From NCBI RefSeq assembly GCF_900110215.1, contig NZ_FOCX01000007.1:1-64000 (forward strand): 64,000 nucleotides of DNA, in the 5' to 3' direction. Under the pieces are notes generated by a model, which saw only the letters and a list, made by a program, of their open reading frames with translations, was not told where the DNA came from and searched no databases. Position numbers and translations under genes: made by a program. The stretch comes from Halorientalis persicus. Lineage in GTDB: Archaea > Halobacteriota > Halobacteria > Halobacteriales > Haloarculaceae. Positions 888-20,607 of the stretch are shown in pieces (within the stretch, counting starts at the first letter, position 1; each line of letters opens with the position of its first letter).

Positions 888-1037
888 TCAGGAAACCTCG
901 TAGCGAACGATGTCCGACCGGCCACAGGTCGGACACGCCTCGCCATCTGGATCTACGGTCGTCCCGCAGTGACGACACTCGTAAACCACCTGCGTGCTCG
1001 CCGTCCCCAGTAACGCCCGGTGGAAGAATCGCTTCAT
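888..1037 (-). CDS. 49-residue zinc-ribbon protein (cassette copy 1)
   Basis: A small gene translated as 49 residues starting MKRFFHRALLGTAS. Two CxxC-type knuckles (C21-x2-C24 and C35-x2-C38) form a zinc ribbon of rubredoxin-like spacing. Its ATG overlaps the TGA of the upstream TFB gene, which suggests translational coupling. A second copy with the same length and layout sits behind the second TFB gene (7546-7695), and this conservation is the main evidence that it is real. The function is unknown; a small partner of TFB or of the SWIM protein is possible. Confidence 0.8.
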   Translation of the reverse strand: MKRFFHRALLGTASTQVVYECRHCGTTVDPDGEACPTCGRSDIVRYEVS

Positions 1038-1972
1038 GCCGACACCCCCAGTCGGTCACGAACGAGTTCACGATTCGACCGCACCGTGGCCGGGCAGACA
1101 TCAGCAGCGTTCGCGAGGGTACGTTGTAGGACTGACTCGCCCTGCTCGGCCGCAGCCACTGCCAGACAGCCCGCCGCGAAGCCGGCTGGGTTTGACCCGC
1201 TGATCAGCCCTGCCGTCTGCGCTCGTTCGGCGAGGTCCCGCGCCAGTCGCCGCGTGTCCGCAGCTACCTCGACGGCCGAGGCCAGTTTCGGGACGAACGC
1301 GACCGGCTGCCGTGGTGGGACGGCCAGTTCCAGTTCTCGCTGCAGGACGCGGTAGGCATTCCGAACCCGACTGCGTTCGACCCGCCCCACCGCGACAACC
1401 TCGTCGAGCGTCCGGGTGTGGCCGTTGCATCGACAGGCCGCGTACACGCAGGCCGTCGCCATCGCCTCGATCGACCGCCCGGGGAGGAGCGACGCCTGCT
1501 GGGCCGTCCGGAAGAGTGTACTCGCCTGCTCTCGGAGACTCCGCTCCAGACCGAGCGCCGACACCATTCTCGCGATCTCCGTACAGCCGTGGCCGAGGTT
1601 CCGTTCCGCCTTGGAACGCCACTTTGCCCGACTGTGCTCGCGTCTGAGCCGGGAGAGTTGCCGTCGCTTCCGGTCGGGGAGGGAATTGCCGTTGGCGTCC
1701 TGGTCACCGCCGATCTCCGTCGACAGCCCCCGATCGTGCCGTACGTTCGTCAGCGGCGCGCCCGTCCGTTCCCGTTCTCGATCGTCCTCCGGGAAGGACC
1801 GCGGACCACGACGGTCGACCCGGGCGGCTTCGATTATCAGTCCGCACTGGTCACACCGTGTTTCGCCGGCCTCGGTGACGACCCGGCCATCGCATTCAGG
1901 ACAGTCGTTCGTCCGCACGCTCCCAGTCGTTTCTTCGTCGACACACGTTTGGTAGATGTCTCTCGTAGCCAT
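1034..1972 (-). CDS. tfb: Transcription initiation factor TFB paralogue (copy 1)
   Basis: A 312-residue TFIIB-like factor that would bridge TBP-bound promoters and RNA polymerase. After a 23-residue N-terminal extension there is a zinc ribbon (C24, C27, C40, C43). A B-finger/linker region with GLSTEIG follows, then two cyclin-like repeats ending in a helix-turn-helix (CPATVRSNRELVRDRL). Haloarchaea often carry several TFBs, and this one is encoded in mobile-looking DNA and is paralogous to 7692-8630. The start at 1972 lies just after a three-arm hairpin leader. The gene is coupled to the zinc-ribbon gene by an ATGA overlap. Confidence 0.92.
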   Translation of the reverse strand: MATRDIYQTCVDEETTGSVRTNDCPECDGRVVTEAGETRCDQCGLIIEAARVDRRGPRSFPEDDRERERTGAPLTNVRHDRGLSTEIGGDQDANGNSLPDRKRRQLSRLRREHSRAKWRSKAERNLGHGCTEIARMVSALGLERSLREQASTLFRTAQQASLLPGRSIEAMATACVYAACRCNGHTRTLDEVVAVGRVERSRVRNAYRVLQRELELAVPPRQPVAFVPKLASAVEVAADTRRLARDLAERAQTAGLISGSNPAGFAAGCLAVAAAEQGESVLQRTLANAADVCPATVRSNRELVRDRLGVSA

Positions 1973-2166: not shown

Positions 2167-5100
2167 GTGCGGTCCAACGTGTTACCGCGACCGGAACTCC
2201 CATCTCTCTGGACGACAGCACAGGCACGCTCTTCGGACAAAAGCAAGCAATCCAGCACAGGAACAGGAGCAACTGACCAGCCACTTCCAGCAGTCCCCGA
2301 CGAGCCACAGACACGGCCGTATATCGAGATTCGGCCGACCGATACGCCACTTGATCCCGGGACTGTCGCACACGGCATCGATGTTCTCGTCACGGCGTTG
2401 CAGGAGGCGAGTCAGGATGGGCTCTGGCACACACTCATGGACTCCGTGCAACAACCCCATGTCGAATGGGTCCTCGTCAGTGACGGCCGCTCCGATGCAC
2501 AGATCCGGTATTTCGTCGGCACGGACGACAACGAGTTACTCCCGGACGTCAAACACGTTCTCCGAACGGCGCTCCCGAACTCCTACGAACTTCGGGAGGT
2601 GACCTGGCACCCACGCCAGATATACGAACAACTGCCGGTCGCAGCCACTCCGGAAGATTGCCATCCACATCCGGCGATCACGCCCGCTCGACCGTACGTT
2701 GCCGGCGTCGAGTATTGTGGTCACGCGAAGCGGAGATCTGACTGGCAGGCACCGTTGGCACCATTCGAGGAGATCATCGACAACAGCGAGGCTCCCCAAC
2801 ACCACCGCAACCAGAACCAGCGCGAATCCCGGCGCGTCCCGCTGGCAACTCTAATCGAAACGATGCGCGAGGCCAACGTCCCCGTAATCTATCAAGCGGT
2901 CTGTCGGTCCTACGACGACTGGACGGGCGACCGACGTTCCTACCTCCAGACGCTCCGGGACGACGAGGACTGGCTGATGGACCTCATCAGCCAACGGTCA
3001 CAGGAAGAGAAGCGGGCGTACCAGCCACCCCCCGAGGACCAGGCCCGTATCGACGCAATCAGGACCCGGGACCCAGCGCGGTCGCTGTTGCTCTCGGCAC
3101 GGGCAGTCGTCCTGACGCGAACCGATCCGCCCCTTGCCGACAGCATTGCGCGTGAACTGACCAGCGTCTTCGGCCACGTCGGGACACAGTTTCACGAGGT
3201 CCGCGGCCAGCTCCGGACGGATGACGACCTCCATCCCGCGAACCGCAAGCCACCGGGCGCACAGGTTTTCCACGATCTCGTCGATCGGACAGTTTACCCG
3301 GCGACGTACACCGGTCCCCGGACACGGCTACCGGGTGTCTCAACGACCAGCCGCGGGCTCGTCGTCTGCCCACCGGAACTGCCGAACTTCTGTCTCCTCG
3401 GGGGGCAGGGACTCACACCGGACGGCAAACGGGCCCTCGGGACCCGGGCCCGGGAACGGACTGGTGTGGCGTTGCCCCCACCGGACTTGTTGGCCCACTA
3501 CACGGGCCCGGGGATGTCGCTGTGTATGCCGCTGACCCACGACCGGGATCCATACGGGCAGCCACTCTCGCTCCCCCCAGCGGAGCAGGATCGACACATC
3601 GTCGTCGGCGGTCGTACGGGGGCCGGCAAGTCCATCCTCGTCGAGACGGCGATGCTCACGAACGTCGACGCCACCGCTGGGCTGGACATTCTCATCGACT
3701 CGAAGGGGGGTGGCACCGCCGAGGAGTACCTGCGAGCCCACTACGCCCAGCACGGTGACCTCGACGATGTGCTCTACTTCGACTGTACGGAGGTGTTGCC
3801 GGCGCTGTCGTTTTTCGATATCCGGGCGCTGCTGGACGCTGATGTCCCTCATTCCGAGGCTGCCGCTCGCGTGGCCGGCCAGTACGAGGAGATTCTCCGG
3901 GGGCTGATGGGAGCCGACCGGTACGACCGGGCCGTCGACGCGCCGAAGGTCATTCGCAACCACGTCAAGGCGCTGTTCGATCCCATCCACGGCGACGAGA
4001 CGTTCGGGCACGACGATCTCTATGCATCCTTGCGCCGAACGATGGAGATGGAGGCCCCGCCGACCGTCACCACCGACGGACTGGAGGAGTACTTCGACAA
4101 CTTGGTCGAGCGCGACCGTGAAGTCTTCCAGAAGGTTCTGGGTGGAGCCGTTGGTCGCGTCGACACGATCGCCACCGACGAGCGACTCGCGTCAGTGTTC
4201 AACCACACACCCGGCGAGGGTGACGCGGCGTTCGATTTCGGGGAGTTGCTCGACGAAGATCGCGTCGTCATCTTCGACTTCGGTGGCATGGAGGACCGAA
4301 TGAAGCGGACGCTGACGTTGGTCCTGCTCTCGAACCTCTGGACGGCGCTGAAAGCCCGTGCCGAGGCTGCCGACGCGGCTGCCGACCTCCCACTGGTCAA
4401 CCTCTATCTGGAGGAGGGAGCCGAAGTCGCGGAAACGGAAGTGATGGACACACTGCTGTCACAAGGCCGGTCGTTCGGGCTGTCGGTATTGTTGGGCGTG
4501 CAGTTCCCCGAGCAGTTGAAATCGTCCGATCCCACGACCGAAACCTATCTCGAAGCCCTCAATGAAGTGGCCACGACCGTCGTCGGCAACGTCTCGGTCA
4601 CCGACGACCTCGCTGGGGCACTGGCCACCGAGGACATGGATCCCGAGGCCGTCGCCCGTCGACTCAGTGCGCTCCAGCGCGGGGAGTGGTTCGTTCAGCC
4701 CGCCGCCCCGTTTGGCGAGCCACGGCCGCGGCCGTTCCTCGCGGAATCGCTGGCCCCACCGCCTGGCCACCCGGCCAGTGACCAGCCGTTGACCGCCAGC
4801 GAGGGCCAGGCCTTCGAGAACGCGTTCGAGTCCGCGTGTGACCGGACGCGTAAGACGGCTGGGTTGGCCCACATCGATGCTGGAGCGGTGCCAGCCCCGG
4901 ACACAGAGGAGGAGTCCACGGACCCAACGACCGACCCGAATGCAACAGCAGCAGAGCTCACCGATCCAGACATCCGGCGGGATTCGCTCCTCCCACACAC
5001 CCAGCGACGCCCCGACTGTATCGCGTACGACGCCGACGCCCACACCCTCCGGTGTACGTCCTGTGACAATCGCTACGATCCGACGGTCGACGGTATGCGT

Positions 5101-6003
5101 GATGCCATCGAGTGCTGTCACTCACTGGTCGATGTCGACCGTGATGACATCCCTGTCTGTGAGATCAATCTGAAACTCTCACCCGAGGAGATCGAGGCGT
5201 CGGAGTGGTCGGTGACGCAGTTGCTGTTCCTGCAGGCCGTCTACAACGCACAACAGCTTCGCTTCGACGTACTCGAATACGACATCGTCCGGGATAGCAT
5301 GGTCCGGTTGCGGGAGTACGTCGGCATCGAGTACGACGCTGTTCTGGAGTTGGTCGATGCAGGGATCCTGCGGGACCACGGGAAAGAGCCTCACAAGCTG
5401 TACTCGCTGGCTCCCGACGGTCGCGAAGTTATTGGTGAGAGCTACAGTCGCGGCGTCGAGTTCGGGCACGGGGCCGGCGATCTGGAGGAGTCAGCCCAGC
5501 ACGTCCTGTTGGTTGAGTTGCTCCGTCGGTATTTTGTCGACGAATTCGCGGAAGATTCTGCCTCGGCTGTCGAGCAGGTCGTCCCCTATTACGAACTGCA
5601 GGAGGGGGAGGCCCCAGCCGCATCGTTCATGGGTGATGGCGAAGACACGGCCGAGGTGGAATCGGTCGAACGGCGTCGGCTGGACGTGGCCGGCCTCGAT
5701 GCTGACGGGGAGGTTGTCGTCGTTGGTGAGGCCGAACGGTTGAACAACGACAGCCACGAAGCGATTCCGGCCGATTACGACAAGATGGCTGCCTGTGAGC
5801 CCGAGGAAGCGATCTGGGCGACGCTGACGCGAACGGACGCACACGAAGTGCTGGAGACGTTGAACGATCCCGCTGACGGGGAGCCGAGGGTCGAGAAAAC
5901 GTACAGCAAGAATACGCCGGCACGGGACATCAGAATCGACACGCCGGGAGCGACGGAGATCTACCCGATCAGCTATCTGCGACGGTTGCTTGGAGAGGAG
6001 TGA
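2167..6003 (+). CDS. HerA/VirB4-like ATPase with zinc ribbon and nuclease-like tail
   Basis: A 1278-residue multidomain ATPase. Walker A is GGRTGAGKS at 481-489. A Walker B-like strand, LVNLYLEEGA, lies near 743-752, and a second acidic strand (VVIFDFGGMED) precedes it. Residues 951-984 hold a zinc-binding set (C951, C963, C966, C983/C984), followed by a winged-helix-like stretch. Around 1173-1190, DVAGLDADGEVVVVGEAE resembles the core of a PD-(D/E)xK nuclease. Such ATPases pump or translocate DNA in conjugation-like systems. The GTG at 2167 is the first possible start after a stop at 2131. No relaxase or other transfer gene is visible nearby. Confidence 0.8.
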   Translation: MRSNVLPRPELPSLWTTAQARSSDKSKQSSTGTGATDQPLPAVPDEPQTRPYIEIRPTDTPLDPGTVAHGIDVLVTALQEASQDGLWHTLMDSVQQPHVEWVLVSDGRSDAQIRYFVGTDDNELLPDVKHVLRTALPNSYELREVTWHPRQIYEQLPVAATPEDCHPHPAITPARPYVAGVEYCGHAKRRSDWQAPLAPFEEIIDNSEAPQHHRNQNQRESRRVPLATLIETMREANVPVIYQAVCRSYDDWTGDRRSYLQTLRDDEDWLMDLISQRSQEEKRAYQPPPEDQARIDAIRTRDPARSLLLSARAVVLTRTDPPLADSIARELTSVFGHVGTQFHEVRGQLRTDDDLHPANRKPPGAQVFHDLVDRTVYPATYTGPRTRLPGVSTTSRGLVVCPPELPNFCLLGGQGLTPDGKRALGTRARERTGVALPPPDLLAHYTGPGMSLCMPLTHDRDPYGQPLSLPPAEQDRHIVVGGRTGAGKSILVETAMLTNVDATAGLDILIDSKGGGTAEEYLRAHYAQHGDLDDVLYFDCTEVLPALSFFDIRALLDADVPHSEAAARVAGQYEEILRGLMGADRYDRAVDAPKVIRNHVKALFDPIHGDETFGHDDLYASLRRTMEMEAPPTVTTDGLEEYFDNLVERDREVFQKVLGGAVGRVDTIATDERLASVFNHTPGEGDAAFDFGELLDEDRVVIFDFGGMEDRMKRTLTLVLLSNLWTALKARAEAADAAADLPLVNLYLEEGAEVAETEVMDTLLSQGRSFGLSVLLGVQFPEQLKSSDPTTETYLEALNEVATTVVGNVSVTDDLAGALATEDMDPEAVARRLSALQRGEWFVQPAAPFGEPRPRPFLAESLAPPPGHPASDQPLTASEGQAFENAFESACDRTRKTAGLAHIDAGAVPAPDTEEESTDPTTDPNATAAELTDPDIRRDSLLPHTQRRPDCIAYDADAHTLRCTSCDNRYDPTVDGMRDAIECCHSLVDVDRDDIPVCEINLKLSPEEIEASEWSVTQLLFLQAVYNAQQLRFDVLEYDIVRDSMVRLREYVGIEYDAVLELVDAGILRDHGKEPHKLYSLAPDGREVIGESYSRGVEFGHGAGDLEESAQHVLLVELLRRYFVDEFAEDSASAVEQVVPYYELQEGEAPAASFMGDGEDTAEVESVERRRLDVAGLDADGEVVVVGEAERLNNDSHEAIPADYDKMAACEPEEAIWATLTRTDAHEVLETLNDPADGEPRVEKTYSKNTPARDIRIDTPGATEIYPISYLRRLLGEE

Positions 6004-7030: not shown

Positions 7031-7447
7031 TTAGTCCGGGAGTTCGCGCCGTCCCGTCCGGACACACTCCCAACACGGGAAGCCGTCCCTGAGCTCGTCG
7101 CAGTCACAATCCTTGTTCTCGTCAGTCACCTCGGACCCATGCCCACCTTCGGTTGCCGTCCCTCCATCCGCTGCAACCGTCCCAGCAACCGCCGCGTCTA
7201 ACACCGGCTCACGGATGGCCACCGCAACCCGATGCTTGCACGCCCCATCGAACCGGGCATCCGCAGGACAGTTACAGTCGGCTGGCAGCCCGTCGTCGAT
7301 CGTCACTAGGTACTCGTGATCGGCCGGGTTTTCGTGACTACAGTTCTGTACCATGATGCCGTCGTCACTGATCGCAAACTCGAAGGCTTCGTACTGGGCT
7401 CGCTTCGCCACTCGGGTCGTGAACTCCAACTGTTCCAGAGGAGTCAT
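7031..7447 (-). CDS. SWIM zinc-finger protein (cassette copy 2)
   Basis: A 138-residue paralogue of 393-818, with the same SWIM signature (CNCPADARFDGACKH) and the same C-terminal Cys-rich patch (DCDCDEL, CWEC). I place the start at the ATG at 7447 (MTPLEQLEF), which aligns with copy 1 (MHPLERLDV) and follows a hairpin leader; a longer frame to 7480 would run through that leader. It is the last gene of the second TFB, zinc-ribbon, SWIM cassette. The function is unknown beyond probable zinc-dependent binding. Confidence 0.8.
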   Translation of the reverse strand: MTPLEQLEFTTRVAKRAQYEAFEFAISDDGIMVQNCSHENPADHEYLVTIDDGLPADCNCPADARFDGACKHRVAVAIREPVLDAAVAGTVAADGGTATEGGHGSEVTDENKDCDCDELRDGFPCWECVRTGRRELPD

Positions 7448-7495
7448 CGAATCAGGGCACTCACGAGAGCGCCCGCCCATCGGGGCGCGCTACAA
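7448..7495 (-). promoter_or_regulatory. Three-arm hairpin leader F (before SWIM copy 2)
   Basis: Arm 1 (7483-7488) pairs with the middle arm (7469-7474). The middle arm (7467-7474) can instead pair with arm 3 (7455-7462, one G-U). The sequence just before the ATG is CTGATTCG, matching leaders A-E. Confidence 0.6.
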
Positions 7496-7545
7496 CCCCA
7501 CGAGTGGCGACCAGATCTTCCACGAGAAGCACGCCCCTGACCGGG

Positions 7546-7695
7546 TCAGGGGATCTCGTAGCGGGCGATCTCCGACGACCCACACTGCGGACACGGCTCA
7601 GCGTCGCCGTCGACTGGCGTCCCGCACCGACAACACTCGAAGACGACTGTCCGCCCCGCTGTACCGAGCAGAACGCGCGACCAGAACCGCCTCAT
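7546..7695 (-). CDS. 49-residue zinc-ribbon protein (cassette copy 2)
   Basis: A 49-residue gene (MRRFWSRVLLGTAGR...), collinear with copy 1 at 888-1037. The zinc knuckles are again at C21/C24 and C35/C38, and the C-terminus ARYEIP matches VRYEVS of copy 1. Its ATG overlaps the stop of the TFB gene (ATGA). Conserved length, position and cysteines in two diverged cassettes argue for selection on the protein. Confidence 0.8.
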   Translation of the reverse strand: MRRFWSRVLLGTAGRTVVFECCRCGTPVDGDAEPCPQCGSSEIARYEIP

Positions 7696-8630
7696 GCCAT
7701 CTCCACTAACCGACCACGAATCTCATCACGGTGCCCCCGGACCGTCGCTGGACAGACGTTGGCCGCCTGGGCCAGATCGGCCTGTTGTACGTTGATCCCG
7801 CGTTGGCCTGCAACGACGGCCAGACAGCCCGCCGCGAACCCAGCCGGATGACAGCCCGACGCCAGGCCACGCTCCTGGGCCCGTTCGGCGAGGTCGGTCG
7901 CAGCACACCGCGTTTCCGGTGGAATATCCAGTGCAGAGGCCAGCTTCGGGACAAACTCCGCCGGCTTCTGTGGAGGTATCTGTAACCCAAGTTCGCGCTG
8001 CAGGACCAGATACGCGTTCCGTACGCGCGATTGGCCAACGCGAGAAACAGCCACGACCTCCTCGATCGTCCGGGTCTGGCGTGCGCACCGACAGGCTGCG
8101 TACACACAGGCCGTTGCCACCGACTCGATGGCCCGCCCGGGGAGCAACCCCGCATCCTGTGCCGTTCGGAACAGCGTCGACGCCTGCTCGCGGATACTCC
8201 GGTCCAGGCCCAGCGCCGCGACCATGCGGGCGATTTCCGTACAACCATGCCCCAGATTCCGCTCGGCTTTCGACTGCCACTTCCCGCGGCGATGCTCACG
8301 TCGTAACCGCGCCAGTCGTCGTCGTTTCCGCGCTGAGAATGTGTTGCCCTGGGTGTCGCGACCACTGCCAATCTCCGTCGAGAGTCCCCGATCGTGGCGC
8401 GCGTTCGTCAGCGGCGCGCCCGTCCGTTCCCGTTCTCGACCGTCTTCCGAGAAGGACCGCGGACCACGACGGTCAACCCGGGCGGCTTCGATGATCAGTC
8501 CGCACTGCCCACAGCGGGTTTCGCCGGCCTCGGTGACGACTCGGCCATCGCATTCAGGACAGTCGGTCGTCGGGACGCTCCCAGTCGTTTCCTCGTCGAC
8601 ACTCGTTCGATAGATGTCTCTCGTCGCCAT
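7692..8630 (-). CDS. tfb: Transcription initiation factor TFB paralogue (copy 2)
   Basis: A 312-residue TFB collinear with 1034-1972 along its whole length. It has the zinc ribbon (C24, C27, C40, C43), linker motif GLSTEIG, two cyclin folds and a C-terminal helix-turn-helix (CPATVRGHRDEIRGRL). The N-terminal domain is almost identical to copy 1, while the second half differs more, especially in the repeat that contacts upstream promoter DNA. This could give the two factors different promoter preference (inference). It is coupled to the zinc-ribbon gene. Confidence 0.92.
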   Translation of the reverse strand: MATRDIYRTSVDEETTGSVPTTDCPECDGRVVTEAGETRCGQCGLIIEAARVDRRGPRSFSEDGRERERTGAPLTNARHDRGLSTEIGSGRDTQGNTFSARKRRRLARLRREHRRGKWQSKAERNLGHGCTEIARMVAALGLDRSIREQASTLFRTAQDAGLLPGRAIESVATACVYAACRCARQTRTIEEVVAVSRVGQSRVRNAYLVLQRELGLQIPPQKPAEFVPKLASALDIPPETRCAATDLAERAQERGLASGCHPAGFAAGCLAVVAGQRGINVQQADLAQAANVCPATVRGHRDEIRGRLVEMA

Positions 8631-8690
8631 CTCGAATCAGCGCGGCCACTGCCTGTGGCCCCGCACCCATCGGGGGGCCACAAACCACAC
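8631..8690 (-). promoter_or_regulatory. Three-arm hairpin leader B (before TFB copy 2)
   Basis: Arm 1 (8674-8681) pairs perfectly with the middle arm (8655-8662). The alternative is the middle arm (8655-8664) with arm 3 (8640-8649), 9 of 10 pairs. Compared with leader A, arm 3 differs by one base that turns a G-U into a G-C pair, so pairing is kept. Confidence 0.7.
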
Positions 8691-11321: not shown

Positions 11322-12263
11322 CTACATGGTGTCGCCTTCCTTCAGCTGGTCGTCGACTGCGTCGATGACCGTCGTCGCGGTCGTACTGATCCGCTGAAGC
11401 CTGTCAGTGATCGTGTCCGTCTGGTCGTCAGCCCACACCGCCAGATAGAACGCCGCATTGCTCGTGTCGAGGCAGAAGTACCGCCCGACGACGTACGCCA
11501 CCGCTTCGGCTTCGACCTCGCGTTTCGCCCGTTCGCTGTCGTCGGCCACCTGAAAGTGCAACAGCGCATGGGCATACTCGTGGATCAGTGTCGTCACGAG
11601 GTCTGCCTCGTTATCTCTATTCTTGGCTTTCACAATCGGTTGCTCGTCCCGTCCCGACTGACTACAGACACCTTTTGCACCAGAGTAGGTCCATTCGGAC
11701 TGAGCAACAATACGGACCTCGACATCGAGAGCGGATGCCGCCTCCTGTAGTGCGTCGACCAACTCGCTCCCGTCGCCGTACGTCTGAGTGTCGAGTTCCG
11801 GGAGCGGCTCGCCTTCGGTCTGAGAGACATCGAACACCGGCGCGGGTTTGAACCCGACCAGGCCCTCGTCCCAGTCCTCTGGTGGTGTCTCGTCGTACTC
11901 ACAGTCCGACTCCTCGTGATACGACGGCGCGTTCTCACATTCGGGACACCGGGTCGTGATGATCGGTGCCCAGATCCAGATCGCCGACTCGCCCTCTGAG
12001 ACGTGCCTGTCGAACTCTTCTTGCCACGTCCGGTAGCCCGCGACCTTCGTCGCCTCCGGACACTGCTGTTTGATCAGGAGCGTATTCCGATGCGAATACT
12101 CGTGGAACCGACTCTGGACATCCAGCCACTCCTGAAACTCCGCGCTGGCTTGTGCCTCGTCGACGAGGTCGGTGAGGGTCTCGACCCACTCGTCGATGGT
12201 CGCTCGCATCTGTTCGTCGCGCGTCTCCCGGTCGTCGAATGTCGTGGTATCACTAGTCGCCAT
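11322..12263 (-). CDS. ArdC-like antirestriction protein with metallopeptidase domain
   Basis: A 313-residue protein. The N-terminal half (DEQMRATIDEW...FHEYSHRNTLLIKQQCPEATKVAGYRTW) matches the ArdC N-terminal ssDNA-binding domain. The C-terminal half holds a zinc-peptidase signature H228-E-Y-A-H232, with a downstream acidic EVEAEAVAYVVG segment that could give the third ligand. Two Cys pairs (about C105/C108) add a possible zinc site. ArdC proteins are carried by conjugative plasmids and protect incoming DNA from host restriction. It has leader C upstream, and a broken copy of its N-terminus lies at 14820-14946. Confidence 0.85.
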   Translation of the reverse strand: MATSDTTTFDDRETRDEQMRATIDEWVETLTDLVDEAQASAEFQEWLDVQSRFHEYSHRNTLLIKQQCPEATKVAGYRTWQEEFDRHVSEGESAIWIWAPIITTRCPECENAPSYHEESDCEYDETPPEDWDEGLVGFKPAPVFDVSQTEGEPLPELDTQTYGDGSELVDALQEAASALDVEVRIVAQSEWTYSGAKGVCSQSGRDEQPIVKAKNRDNEADLVTTLIHEYAHALLHFQVADDSERAKREVEAEAVAYVVGRYFCLDTSNAAFYLAVWADDQTDTITDRLQRISTTATTVIDAVDDQLKEGDTM

Positions 12264-12320
12264 CTCGAATCAGCGCGACCACTGCGTGTGGCCCCGCACC
12301 CCTCACGGGGCCACAAAACA
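12264..12320 (-). promoter_or_regulatory. Three-arm hairpin leader C (before ArdC-like gene)
   Basis: Arm 1 (12307-12314) pairs perfectly with the middle arm (12288-12295). Alternatively the middle arm (12288-12297) pairs with arm 3 (12273-12282), with one mismatch and one G-U. It is nearly identical to leader D. Confidence 0.7.
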
Positions 12321-12491: not shown

Positions 12492-13730
12492 TCAAGCCCC
12501 GGGGCTTCCTGCTTCTACGACGCGCTTTGCACTCACTTCCTCTCGGTGAGGCGTGAGCGTAGGGAGCGCAGTCTGCACAGGCGTTGATTCGGAGCGTCCC
12601 GCCCCTAACTGCTTGAGTCCTCTGTAGAGAATATTCTTCGCTGCGTTGAGGTCGCGGTCTTCCGTATGGCCGCACGCTGGACAGGAGTGTTCGCGTACCC
12701 AGATTGGCTTGGCTGTTTCCACACCACACACAGCGCACTCTTTGGTCGTTCCTTGTGGTTTCACCTTCTCGACGTGCGTGCCATGGAGGTCAGCCTTGTA
12801 TTCCAACAGGTCAAGAAAGCGTGACCACGCAGCGTCTTGCTTGTTCTTGGCGTTGTGGCTGGTTTCCAGCATCGGCTTCACATCCAAGTCCTCCACTGCG
12901 ACGACATCGTACTCTGTGACTAGCCACGTCGTGAGTTTGTGCTGGTAGTCTCGCACCTTCCGCTTGATTGCTCGTTTCGCTTTGGCTACCTTTCGTCGTT
13001 GCTTCTCCCAGTTGGCAGAGCCGTGTTCTTTCCGGTCGAGTTTCCGCTGTTCGCGTGCGTAGCAGTCGTACTCGTCGGACAGGTCAAGCGTATCCACAGA
13101 CAGGTTCTCCGAAGTGTGGATGTAGCTGGTGATTCCAAGGTCAACACCTACGCAGTCTTCGGGTTCAATTTCACTGAGTGGCGGTTTCTCGGGTGTATAT
13201 TCTACAGTGGTCACGAGTGAGACGTACCACTCACCAGTCGTCTCTTTTTTCAGGATAACCTCGTCAATGTCCTCTGCTGGTGGTACGTCGCGGTCTGCAC
13301 GGATGTTGAACCAGCCAATCTTTTCGAGTCGGAGTCGGACGAATCGGTCGTCGCCCGTGTTGTAATCCACGTTGAAGCGACTTAACTGATTGTACGACAC
13401 TGACCGAAATTTACCGTTGCCTTGCCACTGCAACCGCCCAACATCGTAGCCTTCGTTTCGACGTTCTTGCAGCGTCTCTAGGTCGCTGTGAATCTGGCTG
13501 ATAGCCTGTTGTGCAGCGTGTTGTGACGGTTCGGCAAAGGTCGGCCACTGGTCTGTCCAATCTTTGAGTTTGCTGTGTTGGTCGTAGTCGGATGGCCTGT
13601 CGTTGTAGTCCGAGTTGTAGTAGTCCCGGACAGCGTGATTGCGAATCTGCCGGAGAATGTCGATGTGCCGCCACGCTTCGCTTGCCACATCGTCGGACAG
13701 GTACGCGCGGAAGCGAAGCGTGTGTTTCAT
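12492..13730 (-). CDS. tnpB: RNA-guided endonuclease TnpB
   Basis: A full-length 412-residue TnpB. The RuvC catalytic residues are all present: D197 (VGVDLGI), E280 (VAVEDLD) and D360 (DRDLNAAKNI). The zinc-ribbon cysteines are C332, C335, C350 and C353. The C-terminus (GAGRSESTPVQTALP, VSAKRVVEAGSPGA) is the usual haloarchaeal tail whose DNA doubles as the 3' end of the element and its guide RNA. Family knowledge: TnpB cuts DNA matching the sequence flanking the element, which helps retain it. A small AbrB-like gene ends five bases upstream, so the two may be co-transcribed. Confidence 0.93.
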   Translation of the reverse strand: MKHTLRFRAYLSDDVASEAWRHIDILRQIRNHAVRDYYNSDYNDRPSDYDQHSKLKDWTDQWPTFAEPSQHAAQQAISQIHSDLETLQERRNEGYDVGRLQWQGNGKFRSVSYNQLSRFNVDYNTGDDRFVRLRLEKIGWFNIRADRDVPPAEDIDEVILKKETTGEWYVSLVTTVEYTPEKPPLSEIEPEDCVGVDLGITSYIHTSENLSVDTLDLSDEYDCYAREQRKLDRKEHGSANWEKQRRKVAKAKRAIKRKVRDYQHKLTTWLVTEYDVVAVEDLDVKPMLETSHNAKNKQDAAWSRFLDLLEYKADLHGTHVEKVKPQGTTKECAVCGVETAKPIWVREHSCPACGHTEDRDLNAAKNILYRGLKQLGAGRSESTPVQTALPTLTPHREEVSAKRVVEAGSPGA

Positions 13731-14946: not shown

Positions 14947-15003
14947 CTCGAATCAACGCGACCACTGCGTGTGGCCCCGCACCCCTCACAGGGCCACAAA
15001 AAT
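14947..15003 (-). promoter_or_regulatory. Three-arm hairpin leader D (before ArdC remnant)
   Basis: Nearly identical to leader C. Arm 1 (14990-14997) has one mismatch with the middle arm (14971-14978); arm 3 is 14956-14965. The slight decay fits its pseudogene context. Confidence 0.6.
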
Positions 15004-18520: not shown

Positions 18521-19114
18521 ATGACCGACTCACCCGACCCCGAATCATTTGCGGACATCAACGAGAAAGTGGGTGAAGAGTGGGAAGCCCAGACTACACC
18601 GTACGAACGGGTTAGAGAGGTGATTAACAGAGCATATAGTCCGATCTCGGCCGAGGCTGTTGCAGATGACGCTCGGACCTCACCCAAAACCGCTCGGAAG
18701 CATCTTGAAGCACTCGCTGACGAGGGATTCGTAACGACGTCGACGAGTGAAACCGGTGGGAAACGATATCAGCGGTCGTCGGAGTCGCTCGTGGTGGAAC
18801 AGGCTGCCGAAATCCTGGCTGAAATCTCAACCGACGAGCTCCGAGAACGGGTCGCTGACATGCGCGAGACAGTCCGGGAATATCAGAACGAATTCGGCGT
18901 CGAATCGCCCGAAGAACTGTCGGTCACACAAACGAACGAGGTACTCGCCGAGACAGGAACCGGGTCCGAGACGATCGACGAGGACACACTACAGGAGTGG
19001 CAGACCACGCGTCGTAATCTCGCGTTCGCAAATGCTGCGCTCTCGATCGCTAACGCACAGAAGTTCGTCACCGACGATACGCATACGTCCAGCGGGAGCA
19101 TCTCACCCTCGTGA
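18521..19114 (+). CDS. Helix-turn-helix protein, probable antitoxin of a TumE-like pair
   Basis: A 197-residue protein (I believe DUF7342). An N-terminal winged helix (PISAEAVADDARTSPKTARK, then HLEALADEGFVTTS) is followed by a helical region (ELRERVADMRETVREYQNEF) and a C-terminal helix-rich tail. The next gene starts three bases after its stop and encodes a TumE-like protein. Helix-turn-helix antitoxins precede TumE toxins, so this pairing gives the likely role. Upstream, GAACTATACTTC (18490-18501) may be the TATA region. Confidence 0.75.
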   Translation: MTDSPDPESFADINEKVGEEWEAQTTPYERVREVINRAYSPISAEAVADDARTSPKTARKHLEALADEGFVTTSTSETGGKRYQRSSESLVVEQAAEILAEISTDELRERVADMRETVREYQNEFGVESPEELSVTQTNEVLAETGTGSETIDEDTLQEWQTTRRNLAFANAALSIANAQKFVTDDTHTSSGSISPS

Positions 19115-19117
19115 CCA

Positions 19118-19597
19118 ATGGGTGGACCACAGTCATCCGAGTCCCATTCGCTACGGGGTGCGATCGACAGACCAGCGTTGATCGCAATTCGGGATTTCTA
19201 TAATGAGGAAGAACCACTTGCCTCTGCACAGCTTGATGACTTCCTGAATCCGTCTGTCCTCGAAGTCGAACTGGACGACGGACTGTTGGATGCAACAGCG
19301 GCTCGCATCGACGTACAGTGGACCACTCGAGACGACTACAAATACCACTATACAGATACGCGCGACGTGAACGTCCGGTGGGGTCGACATCCACACGACG
19401 GCGATTACATCCACGTGTCTGGGCTAGAGCACTTCCATCCGCCACCGAACGCCTCGTCCGATCCAACCGACGTCGAGGCGTCCTGTATCGAGCAGTTGCC
19501 CGAGATACTCGTCACTCGGGCAGTCCGGACACTCTGGCGAACAGCCTACCACTCCCAGTCGCTTTCGGCACTGAATGCCGGACAGAATCCACCCTAA
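19118..19597 (+). CDS. TumE-like toxin (DUF6516 type)
   Basis: A 159-residue protein whose core (DDYKYHYTDTRDVNVRWGRHPHD, then YIHVSGLEHFHPP) matches the TumE/DUF6516 pattern of HYxY, an RW strand with a His-rich turn, and a final His cluster. Members are toxin halves of TumE/TumA systems, thought to act as nucleases. It follows its helix-turn-helix partner directly. The N-terminal 20 residues (MGGPQSSESH...) are likely disordered. Confidence 0.7.
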   Translation: MGGPQSSESHSLRGAIDRPALIAIRDFYNEEEPLASAQLDDFLNPSVLEVELDDGLLDATAARIDVQWTTRDDYKYHYTDTRDVNVRWGRHPHDGDYIHVSGLEHFHPPPNASSDPTDVEASCIEQLPEILVTRAVRTLWRTAYHSQSLSALNAGQNPP

Positions 19598-19773: not shown

Positions 19774-20607
19774 CTACTCTCGGATTGTCACGAGCGTCGA
19801 CCCGGTGACCGCGACCGAGCAGCGATCCTGGTACCAGCTCTTCTTCGCGCCACGGAGGACAACCTGATCGCCTTCTGCCACGGGACGCTTTTGACTTTTC
19901 ACCCAGATCGTGAACTTGATCCGCGCTGTCTCGTCTGCGATCAGCCCGGTTTGTGCGATGGCCGGGTGCCGGGGCGTCCACAACTGAGCGACTTCACCTT
20001 CCAGGCTGACTGTCGCCCGATCGACCTCGGGAACGGCCGCAATCGGCACGACTGTCCCCGGCTCGCGCTGACAGCCCTCGACCACGTCCAGCACCGCCCG
20101 TGAGATGTCTGCACCGTCGACGACCCGCGCGGCCAACCGCCGCGCGATGGCTGCTCGCGACCACCCGTCGACCTCCTCGACCAGTCGGGCTGCCTGCTCG
20201 TTGATCGTCGCCAGCTTCGCCTGCGAACACGACTCCCGAGGATCGCTCGGTCCCTGTGACGGAGCCACGCTCACCGCACGCTCCTCGAACTCCTGCCGTC
20301 GCTTGTGACTGCCTGACCTGGCCACCTCGCGAGTCCGTCGTTCCCGACCCGACTGTTGCCGATCGTCCAGCCGCTGGCGCGTCCGTCTGATTTCCACCTC
20401 GCGTGCCGCGAACCGTTCCTCGTCTTCGAGCGTCAGGCTCCCAGTCTGAGTGTCCGGGTGGTTGGTGTCCACCTTCGCCTGTGTCTCCAGTTCGACCGTC
20501 GCCCGTAGCTCAGGATCGTCCTCAACTGTGTACGCCGCATCGTCCGCGTACTTCGCGTTCTGTGCATCGACCGTATCTTTATCTACGACTGTCTTTCTAG
20601 AAGTCAT
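19774..20607 (-). CDS. OB-fold DNA-binding protein, RPA-like
   Basis: A 277-residue protein. The N-terminal half is charged and helical (EERFAAREVEIRRTRQRLDD). The C-terminal 90 residues form an OB-fold of the RPA type (VSLEGEVAQLW; ARIKFTIWVKSQ; VAEGDQVVLRGAKKSWY). A central helical stretch (QAARLVEEVDGWSRAAIARR) may mediate oligomerisation. It is expected to bind single-stranded DNA. I start at the ATG at 20607 (MTSRKTVVDKDT) because the longer frame is arginine- and alanine-rich noise from the GC-rich region. Such proteins recur on haloarchaeal plasmids. Confidence 0.75.
   Translation of the reverse strand: MTSRKTVVDKDTVDAQNAKYADDAAYTVEDDPELRATVELETQAKVDTNHPDTQTGSLTLEDEERFAAREVEIRRTRQRLDDRQQSGRERRTREVARSGSHKRRQEFEERAVSVAPSQGPSDPRESCSQAKLATINEQAARLVEEVDGWSRAAIARRLAARVVDGADISRAVLDVVEGCQREPGTVVPIAAVPEVDRATVSLEGEVAQLWTPRHPAIAQTGLIADETARIKFTIWVKSQKRPVAEGDQVVLRGAKKSWYQDRCSVAVTGSTLVTIRE

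Follow-up and report, generated by a model that had tools for sequence, protein, structure and literature searches.

A VirD4/TraD-like ATPase with a nuclease-like tail in a haloarchaeal mobile region, a candidate coupling protein of conjugative transfer

In the window, by which we mean the whole 64,000-nucleotide stretch of Halorientalis persicus DNA analysed here, one open reading frame (ORF) close to the contig end encodes an ATPase of 1278 residues that combines a motor domain, a zinc ribbon, a winged helix and a C-terminal tail resembling PD-(D/E)xK nucleases (Table 1). This combination in a single chain, first proposed in a first-pass annotation, is borne out by the Walker motifs, the conserved cysteines and an AlphaFold2 model. 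The ORF is a real gene. Full-length homologues are present at more than 30 haloarchaeal loci (in Halorientalis, Halosimplex, Haladaptatus, Haloferax, Halogranum, Halarchaeum and others), and the nearest copy, in the sister genome G006, is intact and 85% identical. Compared with this copy, the ratio of nonsynonymous to synonymous substitution rates (dN/dS) amounts to 0.17 for the whole gene, 0.115 for the motor alone and, as the lowest value of all regions, 0.106 for the last 178 residues, so that the gene is under selection, strongest in the C-terminal domain. A chance ORF was rejected on the basis of the strong homology and the low dN/dS. No homologue was found in the phage collection. Some members of the family are decaying or frameshifted, as copies split into at least two ORFs each are found at L052/L008 1212-4850, L068 9809-13804 and L060 5247-7543.

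The motor had been described as of HerA/VirB4 type; its identity as an ATPase stands, and the assignment to that type gives way to a closer relationship with VirD4/TraD. The Pfam model TrwB_AAD_bind matches with 22.6 bits (cut-off 20.5) and TraG-D_C matches below threshold, while DUF87 (HerA) stays under the Pfam cut-off. Among the NCBIfam matches there are weak TraD/VirD4 hits for the window protein, which are stronger in a close relative (L044), and no HerA model. In the motor tree the ATPase clade (support 0.87) is sister to the coupling proteins directly adjoining VirB4, with a joint support of 1.0. Judged by sequence, the motor resembles VirD4/TraD coupling proteins more closely than it does HerA or VirB4, and the HerA/VirB4 identity was rejected as the weaker one. 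No membrane helix is predicted in the protein (the highest 19-residue hydropathy over its whole length is 1.07), nor in the operon-type haloarchaeal relatives that were tested for hydropathy; an N-terminal membrane anchor is usual in type IV coupling proteins, and not universal.

Downstream of the motor, the zinc-ribbon cysteines C963, C966 and C983 are kept throughout the ATPase clade, and C984 in most of its members, and they are absent from the relatives encoded in conjugation operons. The first-pass annotation had suggested a possible nuclease at the C-terminus, with structure prediction of residues 930-1278 followed by a Foldseek search as the check. The AlphaFold2 model of this region, built from an alignment of the window and genome loci, is confident (pLDDT 85.8, pTM 0.85) and presents after the winged helix a helix, three strands, a helix, a strand and a helix, which is the element order of the PD-(D/E)xK core and of restriction enzymes; a second confident model, of the nuclease-like part alone, has the same order. 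With the isolated domain, the first ten PDB matches in Foldseek are BsaXI, Cdn1, Can2, YaeQ and SfsA, all of the PD-(D/E)xK fold; among the viral matches, an annotated restriction endonuclease comes first (probability 0.98). A PDB sequence search with the C-terminal profile gave chance matches only, and Pfam found no nuclease family in 36 C-terminal regions. The tail probably has a PD-(D/E)xK fold.

A candidate active site in the tail is strongly conserved. In 36 homologues, including those of the conjugation-operon type, E1108, H1112, D1173, E1188, E1190, D1203 and D1205 are invariant, and K1206, in the helix after the catalytic strand, is nearly so. When two paralogues from the same genome (27% and 20% identity) were added, E1108, H1112, Y1141, D1173, E1188 and D1203 remained invariant and E1190 nearly invariant. 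The proposed nuclease signature is to be refined as regards the catalytic strand, which carries E-x-E instead of the textbook E-x-K. BamHI, an active enzyme, has E77, D94 and E111-x-E113, that is, E-D-ExE in the same positions. We consider it reasonably probable that the tail is catalytically active. It is found in 45 of the 117 genomes of the order, where 57 of 74 matches sit in ORFs longer than 1000 residues and eight in ORFs of 272-326 residues; those of the short ORFs that were read encode the winged helix and the restriction-endonuclease-like domain alone. The same E/D-H, D, ExE pattern occurs in standalone winged-helix proteins at L101 9986-10861, L102 10015-10827, L103 9417-10346, L104 14202-15167 and L106 9579-10532, and these have neither a Pfam match nor a clear PHROG family.

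The gene neighbourhoods of the family point to conjugation. Relatives of about 30% identity are found on plasmids from four genera (Halobacterium, Haloarcula, Natrinema and Natronosalvus), where membrane proteins come first and are followed by VirB4, the relative, a primase and a primase-associated protein; the circular Natrinema record starts at the relative. PLSDB types the plasmids with this arrangement as MPF_T. Homologues are thus embedded in a known kind of conjugation operon, which speaks against the idea that the protein acts alone or in an uncharacterised system, and agrees with the role in DNA transfer that had also been suggested. In Haladaptatus YSMS36 and Halarchaeum CBA1220, a few kilobases separate a closer relative from a VirB4 operon in divergent orientation. 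Those of the linked operons that were inspected contain a pilin-sized protein, a surface protein (h4), a VirB6-like protein (PF19590, E 1.8e-19), the protein h1 and VirB4 (NF045971, E 1.3e-41), and are read as operons of a type IV secretion system (T4SS). The possibility that h4 is a fusexin was considered, and it gave no Pfam match.

We then screened 33 members of the ATPase clade, with their genomes and plasmids, for VirB4. It is found within 75 kb of the ATPase in 18 of them, in every case upstream, and the two genes are divergent at 14 loci and co-oriented at four (Haloferax; linked copies occur, for instance, in Haloferax denitrificans and H. sulfurifontis); in one further member, a VirB4 of another type lies 63 kb downstream. 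Of the 15 members on replicons of at least 1 Mb, eight are linked, against 1.2 expected by chance, in a set of members that are related and not independent. No coupling protein adjoins VirB4 in the inspected surroundings of the linked loci, and at three unlinked loci (L041, L089 and L090) a coupling protein directly follows VirB4. The linkage, the lack of an adjacent coupling protein and the sister position in the tree fit a coupling-protein gene that moved away from its operon. At L041 16335-18368, a 677-residue coiled-coil protein is encoded directly after a coupling protein of the C32 type.

In 15 of the 16 genomes searched, that of the window among them, none of the relaxase families PF03432, PF08751 and PF07514 is present, other MOB families not having been searched, and the ATPase itself has no Pfam relaxase match. 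The exception is Haloarcula amylovorans (G017), with two PF03432 relaxases, each located after a VirB4 of a different type and followed by a coupling protein of the canonical TrwB kind; the tail model and the motor model of the ATPase family both fail to match these coupling proteins. A tail that replaces the relaxase would fit this contrast, observed at two loci of one genome, of a relaxase beside tail-less coupling proteins. The T4SS at L109 10962-18261 (G017 contig 2), as well as that at L111, is of a bacterial style, and at L109 it comprises a VirB4 with an h1-like N-terminal region, two small ribbon-helix-helix (RHH)-like ORFs, the PF03432 relaxase and the TrwB-type coupling protein.

Table 1. 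Coordinates in the window of the ATPase gene, its domains and motifs, and neighbouring genes of the mobile region.
Feature	Position	Strand	Basis or remark
Transcription factor B-like (TFB) gene adjoining the ATPase	1034..1972	-	TFB family recurs at 12/37 related loci
ATPase ORF, 1278 aa, GTG start	2167..6003	+	Coupling-protein-type motor, zinc ribbon, winged helix and restriction-endonuclease-like domain
N-terminal region, residues 1-449	2167..3513	+	No Pfam match; conserved across the ATPase family
Motor domain, VirD4/TraD/TrwB type, residues 450-900	3514..4866	+	Pfam TrwB_AAD_bind; motor tree
Walker A, GGRTGAGKS, residues 481-489	3607..3633	+	Conserved
Walker B-like, NLYLEEGAE, residues 745-753	4399..4425	+	Conserved
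Zinc ribbon, residues 950-985 (C963, C966, C983, C984)	5014..5121	+	Cysteine conservation; AlphaFold2 model
Winged helix, residues 1016-1081	5212..5409	+	AlphaFold2 secondary structure; MarR/RovA among Foldseek matches
PD-(D/E)xK-like domain, residues 1101-1278	5467..6000	+	alpha-beta-beta-beta-alpha-beta-alpha order; invariant residues
ArdC-like anti-restriction protein	11322..12263	-	PF08401 at cut-off, metallopeptidase region
Two-gene pair: winged helix (197 aa) and 159-aa protein	18521..19597	+	Recurs at 9-10/37 related loci
OB-fold protein (Ssb-like, sub-threshold)	19774..20586	-	Commonest neighbour of the ATPase family, 17/37 loci

The first 24 kb of the window, in which the ATPase is encoded, are a mobile-element region, with a GC content of 0.56-0.63 against 0.64-0.73 beyond. 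Its ArdC-like protein is typical of transferable elements, and the OB-fold neighbour is present also in the conjugation-operon plasmids. The two-gene pair is close to the ATPase at some related loci, and genes for TFIIB have been reported near archaeal T4SS genes (PMC6563490). Judged by eye, there are toxin-antitoxin-like genes in the same region, and an ORF for a TnpB-like RNA-guided nuclease of the IS200/IS605 type (12492-13730, minus strand) was recognised by eye and by its cluster. A module of a SWIM-zinc-finger gene and a TFB gene is duplicated at 393-2029 and 7031-8687, with an offset of 6658 bases and 72-84% identity in the matched stretches, and the two copies flank the ATPase together with a PIN-toxin-like gene. 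In addition, a minus-strand leader of about 65 nucleotides is found directly before the start codons of two TFB genes, the ArdC-like gene and a truncated ArdC-like copy (1974-2029, 8632-8687, 12265-12320 and 14948-15003), and outside the window at L032 15414-15448 and 19966-20000. It holds the inverted repeat GTGGCCCC...GGGGCCAC, its 35-nucleotide core pattern has four exact matches with none expected, and its features suggest an operator or RNA hairpin that genes of the element have in common.

Computation thus gives the domain anatomy, an invariant E-H/D/ExE site, purifying selection and the linkage to T4SS operons without another coupling protein; from these we infer DNA pumping, cleavage, a role in processing and the order of events. 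In our view, it is more likely than not that the ATPase acts as coupling protein for a conjugative element of haloarchaea and that its nuclease-like tail would process the DNA to be sent. The coupling-protein function is the firmest part of this proposal and is, we believe, likely. That the tail makes the transfer substrate is somewhat less likely than not, and that the protein cuts its own substrate at the transfer origin of the element and then pumps it, relaxase and coupling protein being merged in one chain, is a doubtful though specific version of the same idea. The ATPase would be a hexameric motor of VirD4/TraD type belonging to an integrative or plasmid-borne element, encoded away from the rest of its T4SS and not directly after virB4. 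Its zinc ribbon and winged helix may select or recognise element DNA or partner proteins, and the PD-(D/E)xK-like tail could cut or trim the element DNA to a transferable end, standing in for a relaxase. By analogy with other coupling proteins, the motor would pull this DNA to and through the VirB4/VirB6 channel.

Several observations weigh against this proposal, some bearing on the connection to a T4SS and others on the tail. The window shows no T4SS gene, as it begins at the end of contig C60 and covers only 2.2 kb upstream of the ATPase. VirB4 is absent within 163 kb upstream of the G006 orthologue, the nine other members of the window's subclade include three linked to VirB4, at 63-72 kb, and 15 of the 33 clade members are unlinked. 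The window copy may instead serve in mobilisation for an element that has no T4SS of its own, either integrative and mobilisable or decaying, and that borrows a T4SS elsewhere in the cell. The unlinked members speak for this explanation, as does the G006 copy, unlinked yet intact and under selection, and VirB4 is encoded on five other contigs of the window's genome (C32, C67, C71, C82 and C117), so that a partner T4SS acting in trans is possible. The first-pass annotation saw no relaxase, coupling protein or pilus gene nearby; the ATPase itself is of coupling-protein type, and since the contig end cuts the left side, the absence of a T4SS cannot be claimed for the window copy. We regard the borrowing of a T4SS as a serious possibility, if not the one we favour; as a coupling protein of its own element, the window copy would have its partner T4SS cut off at the contig end or use one elsewhere in the genome.

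As regards the tail, the E-x-E on its catalytic strand could mean lost catalysis, no Foldseek match falls below E 1e-3 and the TM-scores are modest (0.25-0.42). The standalone winged-helix and restriction-endonuclease-like proteins (270-326 residues) indicate that the module is used elsewhere too, mostly with no T4SS gene that could be recognised nearby within stretches of 20 kb. Moreover, the coupling proteins of the C32-type sister group do without the tail in a genome without PF03432, PF08751 and PF07514, which implies that relaxase-less systems do not strictly need it. The E-x-E, the tail-less sister group and the lack of a significant fold match would suit a coupling protein whose tail is dead, or only grips DNA or docks a processing complex, while another, unrecognised enzyme nicks. 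On the other hand, even in homologues of 20% identity E1108, H1112, D1173 and E1188 do not vary and E1190 hardly does, the dN/dS is lowest in the tail, and BamHI is active with its E-D-ExE. A tail without catalytic function is in our opinion rather unlikely.

A defence role, as a translocase-nuclease against phages or plasmids, had been offered by the first-pass annotation alongside transfer. A PADLOC match to mad8 (1.8e-9) and the resemblance of the restriction-endonuclease-like domain to Can2/Cdn1 in the fold search would agree with it, but the mad8 match covers the motor only (473-785), the neighbours are mobile-element genes (ArdC-like, TFB, OB-fold and toxin-antitoxin) and not defence genes, and the clade is linked to VirB4. 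No mad-like genes were noticed in the neighbourhoods examined, and they were not searched for individually. Nothing here favours defence, which we consider very unlikely. Also very unlikely is a DNA transfer engine that needs no partner protein, in the manner of Streptomyces TraB, as could be imagined from a motor and a nuclease-like domain in one chain with no T4SS gene in the visible window, since the clade is nested among VirB4-adjacent coupling proteins and linked to T4SS operons without another coupling protein, and the protein lacks the membrane helix expected of a lone cross-membrane pump.

To our knowledge, the enzyme that cuts DNA for archaeal conjugative transfer has never been identified. 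Surveys have found VirB4 and coupling proteins in many archaea, where relaxases are rare or lacking, and have invoked relaxases yet to be recognised or another mechanism (PMC3158045, PMC6563490, PMC9905601); Guglielmini et al. proposed archaeal relaxases of an unknown kind (PMC3158045). In haloarchaea, integrated elements with VirB4 and TraG/TraD/VirD4 genes are described, and T4SS genes are also present in elements carrying cell-fusion proteins (PMC9259645). Coupling proteins and archaeal T4SSs are already known, and in the open-access literature, as judged by titles and abstracts, we recognised no report of a nuclease-like domain on archaeal coupling proteins. The conserved nuclease-like site on a coupling protein, present in 45 of 117 genomes, offers a named protein and named residues for the question of the missing relaxase; if the proposal is true, the tail would be the long-missing DNA-processing enzyme of relaxase-less archaeal conjugation. 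Genetics are available, as a TraD-annotated gene of Haloferax rises under mating conditions (PMC7749143).

The ATPase shares its motor domain with the VirD4/TraD/TrwB coupling proteins, as well as the VirB4, VirB6-like and pilin-sized neighbours in its relatives and in the linked clade members. In contrast to them, it lacks membrane helices at the N-terminus, has in addition a zinc ribbon, a winged helix and a restriction-endonuclease-like tail and, where linked, is encoded 6-72 kb from virB4, mostly divergently. The coupling proteins of pNRC-type conjugation operons (the 'ATP-binding protein' between VirB4 and primase) are about 30% identical over most of the length and have the winged helix and the tail with the same invariant residues, but lack the zinc-ribbon cysteines and are encoded directly after virB4. 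The T4SSs of Haloarcula amylovorans (G017 contigs C2 and C31) also have a VirB4/VirB6-like operon and a TrwB-type coupling protein, whereas on C2 VirB4 is separated from the coupling protein, which has hydrophobic stretches at its N-terminus and no tail, by the two RHH-like ORFs (assigned by eye) and the PF03432 relaxase. With the BamHI-type restriction enzymes and Can2/Cdn1 the tail shares the order of core elements, and the E-D-ExE of BamHI; unlike these enzymes, it belongs to a motor protein, and the sequence and fold E-values are not significant. Finally, the Ced/Ted systems of archaea are likewise relatives of T4SSs that transfer DNA without a relaxase, but they work in the direction of import with a VirB4/CedB motor, and the single-stranded DNA is proposed to come from a separate HerA-NurA pair (PMC9905601).

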